Shown here one piece after another: positions 35,986-56,121 of a stretch of 64,000 nucleotides of DNA. Both the position numbers and the translations under genes were made by a program. The stretch covers positions 648,294 to 712,293 of the forward strand of contig CAMARW010000001.1 of assembly GCA_945860865.1 (NCBI GenBank), given 5' to 3'. The DNA comes from Chitinophaga pinensis. Lineage in GTDB: Bacteria > Bacteroidota > Bacteroidia > UKL13-3. The first letter of the stretch is position 1, and the number at the start of each line of letters is the position of its first letter. Under the pieces are notes generated by a model, which saw only the letters and a list, made by a program, of their open reading frames with translations, was not told the origin of the DNA and ran no database searches.

Positions 35986-36046
35986 CTTTGGCTGTTGGCT
36001 TTTAGCTATTGTTTATTCGTAATTCGTAATTTTTAATTCGTAATTT
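35986..36046. repeat. Word repeats, families C and A, between convergent genes
   Basis: TTGGCTGTTGGCTTTTAGC (about 35988-36006) belongs to the family C words also seen at 39.57, 41.28 and 46.42 kb; it runs directly into family A words (ATTCGTAATTCGTAATTTTT, about 36014-36033, and one more TTCGTAATTT). The two families are joined head to tail in the gap between the ATPase gene and rlmH. Confidence 0.7.
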
Positions 36047-36051
36047 CCCCC

Positions 36052-36516
36052 TCACCCATGATGGTATTTTTCGCCTTTGATGATGGTATAGGCCCTATAC
36101 AATTGCTCGCCAAAAATGAGGGGAACTAATTGGTGCGAAAACGTAAAAGCAGATAAAGATAATTTGGCATTGGCACGGGCGTAAACGCTTGCATCAAAGC
36201 CATACGCGCCTCCTATTACAAAAACTACGTGGGCATATTTCATTTGTAGTTCTTCTATGTATTGAGCAAATTTCTCACTGCTAAATGATTTGCCTTTATC
36301 ATCTAATAAAATTACAAAATCATTGGGTGAAATCTTCTTTAAAATAGCTTCTGCCTCCGCCTTCTTCATGGCAGTTTCTTCTTTGTTTTTGCTATTTACC
36401 ACCAATAACTCGTCGCTAAATTTGGTATAATGTTGCAGGCGTTTGGCGTATTCAGCAAATCCACTCTGTGCAAAGTCTAAGTGCAGTTTTCCAATTCGGA
36501 TTAAACTTATCTTCAT
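36052..36516 (-). CDS. rlmH: 23S rRNA pseudouridine-1915 N3-methyltransferase
   Basis: A 154-residue SPOUT-family enzyme that methylates pseudouridine 1915 in helix 69 of 23S rRNA on the assembled ribosome. The knotted SAM site is recognisable in FVILLDDKGKSFSSEKFA, FVIGGAYGF and the C-terminal signature SHQLVPLIFGEQLYRAY ending in GEKYHHG. I start at the ATG 36516 (MKISLIRIGK) rather than the TTG two codons earlier. Family A repeats flank the gene on both sides. Confidence 0.95.
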   Translation of the reverse strand: MKISLIRIGKLHLDFAQSGFAEYAKRLQHYTKFSDELLVVNSKNKEETAMKKAEAEAILKKISPNDFVILLDDKGKSFSSEKFAQYIEELQMKYAHVVFVIGGAYGFDASVYARANAKLSLSAFTFSHQLVPLIFGEQLYRAYTIIKGEKYHHG

Positions 36517-36528
36517 ACGCAATTCTTT

Positions 36529-36590
36529 AAATTACGAATTACGAATTAAAAATTACGAATCCGTAATCCGTAATTTTTAATTCGTAATTT
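36529..36590. repeat. Word-repeat island, family A, between rlmH and clpC
   Basis: Left half with ATTACGAATTACGAATTAAA words (36531-36550) and right half with their reverse complement (CCGTAATCCGTAATTTTTAA, 36561-36580) meet almost without spacer, forming an inverted repeat of about 30 bases per arm with a few mismatches. Both neighbours are on the minus strand, so it could end clpC transcription. Confidence 0.75.
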
Positions 36591-36595
36591 CTAAC

Positions 36596-46291: not shown

Positions 46292-46537
46292 AAAGGGCAC
46301 CAACGGAGCCAACTTAAAAGATTTTCTCGCACAGGCCACCGCCACTCATGCCAAAATCTTATAAGTTCACACCTCCGTTGGATCCCCGCCGCACCCTTTC
46401 CATTAGAACTTCTGCTAGCTGCCAGAAGCCAGCTGCCAGTTGCCTTCTTCAACCCACCGCACGCCAATCCTTCTACATCTGCTGCGTTAAACAAATAGGT
46501 CGGGGTAAGAACGATAATTCATTTATTTGCAAAACCT

Positions 46538-46698
46538 ATCCCGTAGGGATTATATTTCGGTAGCATACAATGCCCACCACGGCATTTTATATCCCGTAGG
46601 GATTATATTTTTTTGCTACCGAAATGTAATCCCTACGGGATATTTGGATTTGCGTAGTTGGGGTGTTTTGCTACCGAAATATAATCCCTATGGGATAT
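46538..46698. repeat. Four copies of a CCCGTAGGGAT / CGGTAGC element, two in each orientation
   Basis: Each about 28-base copy starts with the palindrome ATCCCGTAGGGAT, then TATATTTCGGTAGC. Copies: plus at 46538-46565; plus at 46591-46610 (truncated before CGGTAGC); minus at about 46614-46643; minus at about 46669-46698 (with CCCTATGGGAT). Order plus-plus-minus-minus, the middle pair abutting, gives one large inverted repeat. This looks like a REP/BIME-type mosaic; no transposase is nearby. Confidence 0.75.
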
Positions 46699-46876
46699 TT
46701 GTATGTGATCTTTGTGTTGAAAAAAAACCGCGGAATCTGCTTTCATCTGCGGAATCTGCGCGAAAGTATACATGCGGGTTGGGCTTAAATCCAAAATGAA
46801 AAACCGCACCAAAAACTATGGACTATGGACCATCGACTATCGACTATGAACCTTCTTCATCCACTTAATAAGTTAA

Positions 46877-47548: not shown

Positions 47549-47583
47549 AACTCTCGTTTCTCGCTTCTCGCATCTCGTCTCTG
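47549..47583. repeat. Word repeat, family B, before the OPX gene
   Basis: AACTCTCGTTTCTCGCTTCT followed by CGCATCTCGTCTCTG. One orientation only; it ends 14 bases before the OPX start codon and would lie in its 5' untranslated region. Confidence 0.6.
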
Positions 47584-50956: not shown

Positions 50957-51295
50957 GTTGAGAGACGAGAATTAGCTTTCGCTTCTCGACTCTCGCTTCT
51001 TATACATGCCATTTATTTCTCCAAATCCACCATTTATTCATTAACATTAAAATTACTTGGAATTTTAGTCATTTGTAGCTAATATTGTGTACTTTTTTTG
51101 CTCAAACTCACTTTGCTTCCAAAAAATATGGGGCTCACCAAGCGAAGCTGTGTATGAGTTTTGGGTTTTTGGTTTTGAGTTTTAGGTGAGAGGTATTCAG
51201 TTTTGAGCTTCGTTTTAACCGTCTATTTTTATGTTTCTAATTCTAAACAAATCTTTTTTATATAACACCACCAACCCCCAAAACCCAAAACTCTT
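50957..51295. repeat. Gap with family B and family E word repeats
   Basis: Family B island at about 50958-51001: GAGAGACGAGAA then TTTCGCTTCTCGACTCTCGC, inverted halves. Family E: GAGTTTTGGGTTTTTGG and TTTTGAGTTTTAGG (51157-51187), and after about 85 bases the reverse complement CCCCCAAAACCCAAAACTC (51274-51292), which runs directly into the TTG start of the next gene. Between them is AT-rich sequence without a gene. Confidence 0.65.
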
Positions 51296-53113: not shown

Positions 53114-53135
53114 GGAGATATGAGAGTCGAGATCC
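53114..53135. repeat. Short family B word repeat
   Basis: GGAGATATGAGAGTCGAGAT directly after the dehydrogenase stop codon. It shares GAGAGTCGAGA with the island at 1379 and has no inverted partner. Confidence 0.5.
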
Positions 53136-53174
53136 AAGAAGTATCTAAAATATCGACTTATCGCATTTTTTTTA

Positions 53175-54133
53175 ATGAATAAAGATTCAAAAATATATAT
53201 CGCTGGGCACCGGGGAATGGTGGGATCTGCTATTGAACGCCAATTAAAGCGTTTGGGCTATACCCTTATTATTGGCCGAAGTTCGAAAGAATTAGACTTG
53301 CGGAATGAACAATCGGTTCGTGAATTTTTTAAGGACGTGCGCCCTACCATTGTAATTGATGCTGCAGCAAAAGTGGGTGGTATTTTGGCGAATAATAACC
53401 ATCCCTATCCATTTTAATGGATAATTTAAAAATATAAAATAACCTTATTTCTGCCTCCTTAGAATATGAAATTTCAAAGTTTATATTTTTGGGTAGCTCC
53501 TGCATTTATCCAAAATTGGCTCCTCAACCCATGAAAGAGGAATTCCTTTTAACAGGTCCCTTAGAGCCAACAAATGAATGGTATGCGATTGCAAAAATTG
53601 CAGGAGTAATAGCAATAGAGTCCGTTCGCAATAGTTATGGTAAAGATTATGTTGCCCTAATACCTACCAATTTATATGGTCCTCATGATAATTTTGATTT
53701 AGAGACCTCTCATGTTTTACCTGCAATGATTAGGAAGTTTCATGAGGCCAAAGTTAGTGAGTCTGCCTGCAGTGAGCCTGTCGAACTATGGGGGTCTGGG
53801 ATACCATTGCGCGAATTTCTTCACGTAGACGATTTAGCAGCAGCAGTAGTATTCGCATTAGAAAATACTTTACCTGATCATCTTTATAATGTTGGAAGTG
53901 GAAGTGAATTAAAAATAAGCGAATTAGCCAGCCTTATTCAAACAGTAGTAGGCCATACTGGTTCCATAAGCTATGATAGCACTAAGCCTGATGGTACCCC
54001 AATAAAATTAATGGACAGCAGTAAATTAATGAACCTTGGCTGGAAATCAAAAATTACCCTAGAAGAGGGTCTCAAATCAACTTATGATTGGTTCCTTCAA
54101 AATCAAGAAAATTATAAACAAGTAAAAATGTAA
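53175..54133 (+). pseudogene. fcl: GDP-L-fucose synthase gene with two disabling lesions
   Basis: The first 80 codons (53175-53417) are the N-terminus of GDP-fucose synthase (IYIAGHRGMVGSAIERQL, AAAKVGGILANNNHPYPF) and run into TAA. Reading one base out, the protein continues LMDNLKI, a second stop, NNLISASLEYEISKFIFLG, and then the intact C-terminus from SSCIYPKLAPQPMKEE (53489 on) through EWYAIAKIAG and FLHVDDLAAA. So the gene has a one-base loss in a T-run near 53415 and a TAA where the family has a Gln codon (CAA to TAA). Two independent lesions make a sequencing error unlikely. The enzyme would have made GDP-fucose from the product of gmd. Confidence 0.85.
53753..53786. repeat. Dispersed-repeat fragment inside fcl
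   Basis: AGTGAGTCTGCCTGCAGTGA followed by GCCTGTCGAACT. The part GTGAGCCTGTCGAAC resembles a dispersed repeat seen in many bacterial genomes (CTTCGACAGGCTCA on the other strand, from memory). It is in frame and encodes SESACSEPVEL where related enzymes have a shorter stretch, a net gain of about three residues. Confidence 0.5.
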
Positions 54134-54213: not shown

Positions 54214-56121
54214 ATGTGTCGCGTAGCCGGAATATTTGATCCAAATAGTAACACTCTTCAAGAAGATATTTTGAAGATGCGAGATGCTATGCACCGTGGT
54301 GGACCAGATGACGCGGGATTATTTATTGATGGTGCTCTAGCCTTAGGACATCGTAGACTTTCACTAATTGATTTAAGCGCCGATGGCCACCAACCAATGC
54401 TAAGCAGCGATGAACGATTTGTGCTAGTGTATAATGGCGAGGTATATAATTTTGAAGAAATTAGAGAAGAGCTTTTAGCTTTAGGATACAGTTTCAAGAG
54501 TAAATCGGATACCGAAGTTATTCTTTATGGATTTAAGCAATGGGGAAATGCGCTTTTCGAAAAATTAAATGGAATGTTTTCGATCGCTATTTATGATACA
54601 CAAGAAAAGCAAATTACCTTGGCTAGAGATTATGCGGGCATTAAACCTTTATATTATTATTTAGAGGAAGGTAAACTTTATTTTGCTTCCGAAATACGAG
54701 CATTTAAATCCTTAAATCGTTTTGAAGAAAACCCCGATTGGCAAATCTATTTCCTAGCCTTTGGGCACTTGCCTGAACCTATTACTACTCTGAAAGACGT
54801 TAAACCGCTTCCGAAAGGAACCTGTCTTACTATCAAATTAGAGAACGAGAGAACGAGAGGACGAGAGAATGAGATAGCAAGTAATATTTCTCATCCTCCT
54901 GACTCTCGCTTCTCATCGCACGTTTCTTATAACAACTTTCAATTCACAAACAAAATAACCAATAAAGAGGAAGCATTAACTAAGGTTAAAGAAACCCTTA
55001 AGGCCGCGGTCGAAAGGCATTTAATCTCTGATGCTCCTATTGGTTTATTTTTAAGTGGCGGGATTGATAGTAGTTTGTTAACAATTCTGGCTGAACCAAT
55101 ATTAAAAGAAAAGTTACAAACGTTATCCATCGTTTTTGATGAAACCGAGTTTTCTGAAAAAGAATACCAAGATATTATCATAGCCCAAACGGGCACTAAC
55201 CATAGAACTTATACCGTTACAAAAGAGCAATTTCTAGAAGCCCTGCCCGATGTAATGGATGCCATGGACCAGCCTAGTACCGATGGGATTAACTCTTATT
55301 TTATTTGCAAATACGCCAAAGAAGCTGGGCTTACCGCCGTATTAAGCGGCCTTGGGGCCGATGAGTTATTTGGTGGATACAATTCCTTTGCAAATATGGC
55401 TAAGTACGAATTATTAAGTAAATGGGTGCCAGTAATCGCCTTTAAATCTGCAGAATTATTCAAAAAAGACAAATATCAAAAAGCCAGTTTCTTAGCCATC
55501 CCTAGCCCAATTGGCCAATACCTTTTCAACCGCGGCCTCCTTTGCCCTAAAGAAATTAATAAAATATTAAATGTTGATGAATCTAAAGTTTGGGGACTCC
55601 TTACAAACTTAAATCAGCATTACAAATATTTAGAGAATGGGAGTTCGATAGAAGGAGAGTTCAAGACTAATCTCTCGAAATCTTTACCTGACTTAAAACT
55701 TAAAACTCAAAACTTAAAACCCTTTTCCACTCTCGACCCTTTCAACAAAGCCACCTTCATAGAAAGTAACCTATACATGCAAAACCAATTGCTTAAAGAC
55801 AGTGATTACATGAGCATGTGGCATAGCATAGAAATTCGTGTGCCATTTTTGGATAAAGAATTAATGGAATTGGCCTACCAAATCAGCCCTGAAATTAAGT
55901 CAGTTGATGGGCAAAAGAAGTATTTACTTATTCATGCCTTTGAAGATAAGCTTCCAAAAGCTATTTGGGATAGGCCAAAAATGGGCTTTACCTTTCCTTT
56001 TCAAAATTGGTTAAAACATATAGCCTCTAATGAAAATGGTTATGCAGTTAGAAAATATAATATTGGGTACTACGCTTGGAGTAGATTTTGGGCTTTTTAC
56101 TTACAAAATAAATTAAATTAA
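54214..56121 (+). CDS. asnB: Glutamine-dependent asparagine synthase-like amidotransferase
   Basis: A 635-residue two-domain enzyme. The N-terminal glutaminase has the nucleophile Cys2 (MCRVAGIF), HRGGPDD and [10 protein letters not shown]; the synthetase domain has the ATP loop [12 protein letters not shown] (near 283-294) and [13 protein letters not shown]. In glycan loci such enzymes turn the carboxyl of uronic acids into amides; with two nucleotide-sugar dehydrogenases beside it, that role is more likely than asparagine synthesis, but this is inference. Two stretches do not fit the family: about 209-238 ([11 protein letters not shown]..., repeat family B) and about 476-507 (with [14 protein letters not shown], family E), both in-frame repeat insertions. 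The frame stays open throughout. Confidence 0.87.
54838..54930. repeat. Family B word repeat inside the amidotransferase gene
   Basis: AGAGAACGAGAGAACGAGAG and GACGAGAGAATGAGA on the left; TTTCTCATCCTCCTGACTCT and CGCTTCTCATCG on the right, inverted relative to each other around a short centre. It is translated as a polar insertion of roughly 28 residues at the start of the synthetase domain. Confidence 0.75.
55640..55735. repeat. Family E/B word repeat inside the amidotransferase gene
   Basis: GACTTAAAACTTAAAACTCA and AAACTTAAAACCC (about 55691-55722) are family E words, flanked by fragments similar to family B (AATCTCTCGAAATC; CACTCTCGACCC). Translated in frame as a Lys/Leu-rich stretch in the synthetase domain, before [14 protein letters not shown]. 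Confidence 0.6.

Follow-up and report, generated by a model that had tools for sequence, protein, structure and literature searches.

In-frame tracts of 7 and 8 bp repeat words at two loops of an AsnB-like amidotransferase gene in Chitinophaga pinensis and two relatives

The 64,000 bp stretch of Chitinophaga pinensis DNA analysed here (GenBank assembly GCA_945860865.1, contig CAMARW010000001.1, positions 648,294 to 712,293; "the window" below, its source genome being G000) contains within a polysaccharide locus a gene for an AsnB-like glutamine-dependent amidotransferase, called asnB here, whose open reading frame (ORF) has no stop codon across either of two tracts of short repeat words, sites 1 and 2 (Table 1). 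The 635 amino acid (aa) product matches the Pfam domains GATase_7 (1.1e-44), GATase_6 (1.8e-43) and Asn_synthase (3e-75), its best PDB matches are 1ct9 and 7ylz in a sequence search and 7ylz and 1ct9 in a Foldseek comparison of folds, and in the 50-row alignment described below it retains C2, N74, G75, E76, D99 and an SGGIDSS loop. We take the Cys that follows the first Met, the glutaminase residues and the SGGxDSS loop to be catalytic in AsnB-like proteins; all of these and both Pfam domains are present, and judged by its sequence the protein belongs to that class. The initial annotation of this DNA had assigned residues ~209-238 and ~476-507 to in-frame words of two repeat families, B and E, respectively. 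Both tracts do contain in-frame repeat words, but the first span is partly ordinary loop and the second also holds B-like words, as follows: Tandem Repeats Finder reports 4.4 copies of the unit AGAGAACG, which is 8 bp and not 7 bp long, at site 1, and 4.3 copies of the 7 bp unit ACTTAAA at site 2. There are 43 residues between the alignment anchors of site 1 vs 23 in empty homologues, so part of residues 209-238 replaces an ordinary loop; at site 2 there are 43 vs 11 residues, and the E array there has B-like words on both sides (CGAGA/TCTCG at 55673 and 55731).

Table 1. Positions of asnB, its repeat tracts and related features. Coordinates are those of the window unless a locus is named.
Feature	Coordinates	Strand	Basis or remark
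AsnB-like glutamine-dependent amidotransferase gene, 635 aa	54214..56121	+	Pfam and PDB matches
Site 1, in-frame B-word tract: 8 bp units at 54840-54874, then a worn right arm; ~20 aa over empty homologues	54838..54932	+	Repeat scan, alignment, pLDDT
Site 2, in-frame tract: E-word array at 55691-55720 flanked by B-like words; ~32 aa over empty homologues	55636..55740	+	Repeat scan, alignment, pLDDT
Intergenic B-word inverted pair directly 5' of the asnB start codon	54143..54210	+	Hairpin weak, z -1.64, equalled by 11/200 shuffles
Intergenic B-word heptad array	47552..47577	+	Period scan
Intergenic B words, both orientations	50957..51003	+	Word search
Intergenic E-type words, both orientations (51156-51183, 51280-51293)	51156..51293	+	Word search
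18 nt exact match to the 3' part of the G017 IVP gene, beside CGAGA (53128), 5' of fcl	53134..53151	+	blastn E 0.001 in the window; next best 0.21
DegT/DnrJ/EryC1/StrS aminotransferase with in-frame B array, genus member G001	L283 998-2344		Pfam
DUF2779 protein with in-frame B array, G003	L259		Pfam
Pseudouridine synthase (N-terminal part) with in-frame B array, G037	L237		Pfam

An orthologue search of 60 genomes (the window's own included), together with a contig scan, found close orthologues in three members of the genus, G012, G017 and G008, and the 50-row alignment consists of these three genes, that of G000 and 46 of the 54 complete homologous ORFs. The eight complete ORFs left out are L013, L017, L020, L024, L041, L134, L131 (the window gene) and L141 (a second fetch of L011); three incomplete homologous ORFs were left out as well. 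Site 1 measures 43, 77 and 44 residues in G000, G012 and G017, respectively, and in the other 47 rows it measures 21-23 residues in 46 and 29 in one. Site 2 measures 43 residues in G000 and 65 in G012, and 5-14 in those same 47 rows, the G017 row being an N-terminal fragment; site 2 of G017, which lies on a separate contig, is filled too, with another kind of word. The gene is filled at both sites in these three species, with words that are partly different. The 809 aa G012 ORF has a third filled site near its C-terminus, so the insertions that were first described as having entered the gene twice are two in the window gene and may be more than that in the genus. This third tract (L027 4510-4760) also includes an 84 nt tandem duplication and 24 nt GACGTCATGGTGAGC-type repeats, all in frame. 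The G008 gene has no extra sequence at any of the three sites, yet 5 heptad arrays are present elsewhere in G008 (124 kb), none of them in an ORF. Extra sequence and repeat-like DNA go together row by row: within this set no homologue has the same segments without such DNA, and the claim that intergenic repeats have entered a coding sequence and stayed there is supported by the coincidence of the long sites with repeat-like DNA and by the shortness of both sites in the 47 other rows.

The 7-8 bp words of both tracts are otherwise held mainly between genes in G000, of whose 2.59 Mb we sampled 664 kb (26%; the window and 30 stretches). Segments of period 7 number 29 in the first 464 kb of this sample vs 1.5 in a Markov-3 control, and in the same 464 kb the other periods gave 0-4 segments (periods 4, 5, 6, 8, 9, 10, 11 and 13), 5 (period 12), 20 (period 14) and 3 (period 15); 7 is the repeat period of this genome. 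When periods 7, 8 and 14 are merged, the arrays are concentrated in the window, with 18 there vs 31 in the remaining 600 kb. Among the 493 ORFs of at least 150 aa in the 664 kb, the AsnB-like gene has the highest lag-7/8/14 score (18), and the runner-up (13) has its arrays near the start of its ORF. The arrays that lie within ORFs of at least 100 aa number 6 in G000 (2 in asnB), 8 in G012 (7 in asnB), 2 in G017 (both in asnB) and 0 in G008.

The three tracts of G012 and G017 that were folded are strong palindromes (z -6.2 for G017 site 1, -5.4 for G012 site 2 and -3.8 for G017 site 2). Their inverted ends are present as arms in both of these relatives and are not clear in the window, where both palindromes are worn. 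Contig L027 of G012 carries a 46 nt repeat family with nine copies at 60% identity or more, two of which are the right arms of asnB sites 1 and 2 (67% and 65% identical to the reference copy), the others lying outside the listed ORFs; these two arms match each other at 89% over 73 nt. Furthermore, the left arm and spacer of site 1 are common to G000 and G017, and the words and right-arm layout of site 2 are common to G012 and G017. These shared arms, spacer and words suggest that insertion preceded the split of the three species and was followed by turnover of the words. A 21-row tree groups G000 with G012 (support 99/99) and then G008 (97/93), and a 23-row tree of the N-terminal part groups G000 with G017 (99/98) without settling the place of G012.

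We think it highly probable that the two segments are the remains of short palindromic repeats that inserted in frame into an AsnB-like amidotransferase that still works, at two of its surface turns and in an ancestor that the three species share, and that they have been tolerated there and are read as disordered loops. Short palindromic elements with arms made of arrays of 7 or 8 bp words would have entered at the two turns, most likely in that ancestor after its split from G008, and the inserts would have been translated as disordered loops while their words turned over fast; the frame would have been kept partly by the arithmetic of the units (below), the B words being stop-free on both strands, and the elements may belong to a repeat system whose inverted heptad arrays also enclose IVP (PF05635, S23p, Avd-like) genes (below). 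Their arrival was presumably by a mobile or copying process and not by growth on the spot. It is rather unlikely that the arrays grew in place in two permissive loops, through replication slippage or copying on a hairpin template, with nothing inserted from elsewhere: the differences between species in the words at a single site fit such growth, but the G012 right arms of sites 1 and 2 match each other and intergenic copies (D2, D7), slippage alone would not give inverted arms with spacers, and arrays in ORFs are otherwise rare in the sample.

The tracts are in a conserved enzyme, but is that enzyme still at work? The ratio of the nonsynonymous to the synonymous substitution rate (dN/dS) between G000 and G017 is 0.061 (238 codons) and 0.113 (189 codons) outside the tracts, where the gene is under strong purifying selection, and 0.73 (32 codons) inside site 1. 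An AlphaFold2 model of the window protein has a mean predicted local distance difference test (pLDDT) value of 90.3 and a predicted template modelling (pTM) score of 0.90, and its pLDDT falls below 50 only at residues 212-232 and 475-493, which are the two tracts. In the model site 1 is at the turn that links strands 203-208 and 234-238 and site 2 lies between helices 456-473 and 509-536, turns that would put both tracts at the surface. Given the low dN/dS outside the tracts, the retained catalytic residues and the confident predicted fold, the enzyme is most likely intact with two disordered loops. It is like the AsnB-type enzymes 1ct9 and 7ylz in domains, catalytic residues and fold, and differs in these two predicted loops, which are lacking in 47 aligned homologues.

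The loops might themselves be under selection, the heptad arrays serving as a rapidly evolving linker through which the enzyme or its partners are tuned. The same sites are filled in three species, PMC9879509 reports very strong selection on Borg tandem repeats that make disordered regions, and dS between G000 and G017 is lower inside site 1 (0.39, a figure from 32 codons) than outside it (1.02), so the sequence there may be constrained; however, the dN/dS value inside site 1 and the species-specific words look closer to neutral, the tracts are presumably near-neutral, and we consider selected loops improbable. The initial annotation also allowed that the gene might be at an early stage of decay, the tracts being harmless since the enzyme no longer works. 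The adjacent fcl gene is indeed broken by a frameshift and an in-frame stop, and part of the locus may be losing function, but the dN/dS values of 0.06 and 0.11 outside the tracts, the conservation of C2, N74, G75, E76, D99 and SGGIDSS and the confident fold leave decay of asnB very little probability. Removal of the tracts from the RNA, which would leave them untranslated like 23S rRNA intervening sequences, is scarcely credible, for although the hairpin arms are alike and the Coxiella 23S intervening sequence (PMC4990558) is cut out by RNase III and has two or three tandem heptamers, variable among strains, just 5' of its S23p ORF, the frames through the tracts are open in all three species, which excision would not need, and RNase III excision without ligation would cut the mRNA. 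The tracts are presumably translated.

Frame arithmetic bears on how insertion of palindromic repeats could be tolerated. Since 7 is 1 modulo 3 and 8 is 2 modulo 3, the units of a pure array fall into each of the three phases in turn, which leaves a strand either with no closed frame or with no open one; altering the array by one or two units brings it back into frame. The words CTCGCTT, CTCGCCT, CTCGAAT, GTTTTGG, GGCAACT and GCGACAA are stop-free in six frames, as are the 8-mers AGAACGAG, TCTCGAAC and AAAGTCGC; AATTACG, GTTTTGA, GACCATA, GGACTAT and GGTTGTA are stop-free on one strand only, and GTTTTAA, CTTAACA and GACTAAA on neither. The window's E array belongs with GTTTTAA and has a single open frame, which it owes to a variant unit; as this word is closed in a pure array, the frame rule helps the B words and not the E words. 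Seven of the 11 asnB arrays are open in three frames, three in two and one in one. Enrichment of all-frame-open words in the asnB arrays is not clear once an open frame is required, and the frame arithmetic explains tolerance and does not prove selection.

Several observations weigh against the insertion and tolerance of palindromic elements as set out above. The hairpin of the window's own site 1 is weak (z -1.95, equalled by 9/200 shuffles) and its site 2 has none (z +1.25). The stop-freeness of the asnB arrays (10/11 open in two or more frames) is not clearly above what an open frame requires in any case, since of 85 non-ORF strands with one or more open frames 59 have at least two. The lower dS of site 1, on its 32 codons, is not what plain neutral drift predicts, and dS is saturated inside site 2 and in the comparisons with G012 and G008. 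The relatives are metagenome assemblies, the G017 gene is divided between two contigs, and the AsnB part of L031 runs upstream into unrelated sequence as one 409 aa ORF, so L031 may be chimeric. Finally, an IVP profile search of the asnB tracts found no remnant inside them.

Repeat elements inside protein genes are already known; what is new here is the heptad build, which is frame-neutral for some words. In the review PMC2229807 the Rickettsia palindromic elements (RPE) are described as dispersed, mostly intergenic and present in frame in conserved genes, and the RPE-bearing enzyme Gmk is active. By their features, not their sequence, the asnB repeats may be likened to these protein-coding palindromes and would work like them: they too are a dispersed family that is also found between genes and stands in frame in a conserved gene under selection (selection having been assessed for asnB). 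They differ in having arms built from tandem words of 7-8 bp, which fall into many families and vary among species, whereas an RPE is a 105-146 bp element with a sequence of its own. The inverted ends of the G012 and G017 elements also resemble those of miniature inverted-repeat transposable elements (MITEs). Short tandemly repeated repetitive (STRR) sequences are arrays of heptanucleotide repeats. The TAACTGA heptamers of Cyanobacteria, Beggiatoaceae and Bacteroidetes are, according to PMC4679880, tandem and chiefly intergenic, and the translation of the word limits where it is tolerated. Such heptanucleotide arrays share with ours the tandem 7 bp units (the genome-wide excess and site 2, site 1 having 8 bp units) and the phylum; ours are often inverted pairs, consist of other words and lie inside a conserved enzyme at loops common to three species. 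Borg repeats are similar as fast-evolving DNA repeats that make disordered protein regions, but their units in ORFs are divisible by three (PMC9879509), whereas asnB has units of 7 or 8 and stays in frame over the complete insert only. The 23S intervening sequence is likewise a hairpin element, and at other loci of the genus an IVP gene stands between the arms; the asnB elements have no IVP gene and are located in a protein gene. The asnB tracts are an example, traceable through relatives with and without them, of intergenic repeats that in several species have become part of an enzyme under selection, each time at the same loops. The 7 bp unit also offers a simple rule for the persistence of some words whatever the frame, which repeats with units divisible by three do not share.

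The B words also reach other genomes and genes. The pattern CGAGANNCGAGANNCGAGANNCGAG occurs in 11/19 genus members and its reversed control in 1/19, with counts of 36 in G012 and 2 in G000 and no match to the exact pattern in G008 or G017. In a class-wide draw it was found in 3/198 genomes, including G000 and G037 (which also has many control matches). Five of the 58 B-pattern loci that were fetched, several of which overlap one array, have the pattern within an ORF of at least 150 aa; three of these ORFs are the conserved genes of Table 1 and the other two have no Pfam match. The DegT tract, which comprises two inverted word families, has a folding energy of -47 kcal/mol, and the DUF2779 tract hardly folds (-4.5 kcal/mol), both values being without shuffles.

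Genes of the IVP family were found in 7/7 genus members, 95/119 class-draw genomes and 116/148 phylum-draw genomes. PF05635 genes of Bacteroidota (L149-L228, for example L153, L156, L157, L161 and L168) are enclosed by inverted arrays, often of heptads, at a higher rate than control genes. The loci used in the flank tests are best-scoring matches and not a random draw: 52 of 54 (L149-L202) have both flanks of at least 80 nt, and removal of 9 redundant ones left 43. The 771 control genes come from three genus members, and at least one of them is itself an IVP gene (L055 11046-11399, among the 10 that pass). Flanks with inverted copies at a score of at least 15 were found at 27/43 IVP loci vs 10/771 control genes and 1.4% of 1806 mismatched flank pairs, and an array is present in a flank at 26/43 vs 61/771. 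With an earlier threshold, the 99th percentile of mismatched pairs, 0/52 loci passed, an outcome that we attribute to the presence of near-identical loci in the mismatched set; the test was repeated with redundancy removed and fixed thresholds. By group, with redundancy kept, inverted flanks are present at 18/22 genus loci, 17/30 class loci and 9/26 new phylum loci, with mismatched-pair rates of 7.4%, 2.8% and 3.4%, respectively, and at 4/73 neighbouring ORFs in those loci. The association is strongest near G000 and fades with distance, roughly a third to two thirds of the more distant loci being without it.

Traces of IVP genes are also present in this glycan locus. The G017 version (in L030) has an intact IVP gene, and in G012 a remnant of 30 IVP residues, with heptad arrays on either side, is found directly 5' of asnB (L027; E 0.002 in six-frame pieces of four loci). 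In the window the 18 nt match 5' of fcl (Table 1) is, from its sequence, possibly a remnant of an IVP element. A weak IVP profile match on the minus strand of L027 (score 8.9, E 0.27) was set aside. From the association of IVP genes with arrays, these traces, the Coxiella heptamers and the likeness of PF05635 to the Avd protein of diversity-generating retroelements (a comparison made in PMC10053308), we hypothesize that the short palindromes are versions of IVP elements that lack the IVP gene. A link between heptad arrays and IVP genes is possible, and if true it would offer a setting for a protein family familiar mostly from the intervening sequences of 23S rRNA, and perhaps a mechanism for heptamer arrays, so far described without one. 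More tentatively, and with considerable doubt, inverted heptad arrays with an enclosed IVP gene could form a class of small mobile elements of their own, spread throughout the phylum Bacteroidota, of which the 23S rRNA intervening sequence would be only the best-known form; the IVP protein would help to copy or place the hairpins, and gene-less versions would colonise enzyme loops because 7 bp arrays are frame-neutral. In the literature as far as titles and abstract openings go, most subscription journals being outside that scope, we found no description of inverted heptad arrays around free-standing IVP genes or of heptad palindromes inside an AsnB-like enzyme.

The neighbours of asnB are genes for a NusG-like factor, a polysaccharide export protein, a Wzc-like protein (a name drawn from its domains), sugar-nucleotide enzymes, a glycosyltransferase and an ABC transporter. 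The broken fcl gene (GDP-fucose synthase, 53175-54133), 5' of asnB, has its frameshift and stop in this assembly, and fcl of G017 is a single ORF (L030 2935-3903). The two copies share the reverse complement of TTCGACAGGCTCA (window 53773-53785; L030 3534-3546), translated as ..SEPVEL and ..NEPVESVEL, respectively; words like it occur once in the 664 kb of G000 and five times across four samples, which is infrequent and does not support its status as a repeat. A 42-45 nt repeat (TTTTGCTACCGAAATGTAATCCC...) has direct and inverted copies at 46611-46707 and 46537-46581, 5' of the NusG-like gene. A SPOUT methyltransferase gene (36052-36522) sits, like many IVP genes, between inverted arrays, here of AATTACG (36000-36595), with a flank score of 24.
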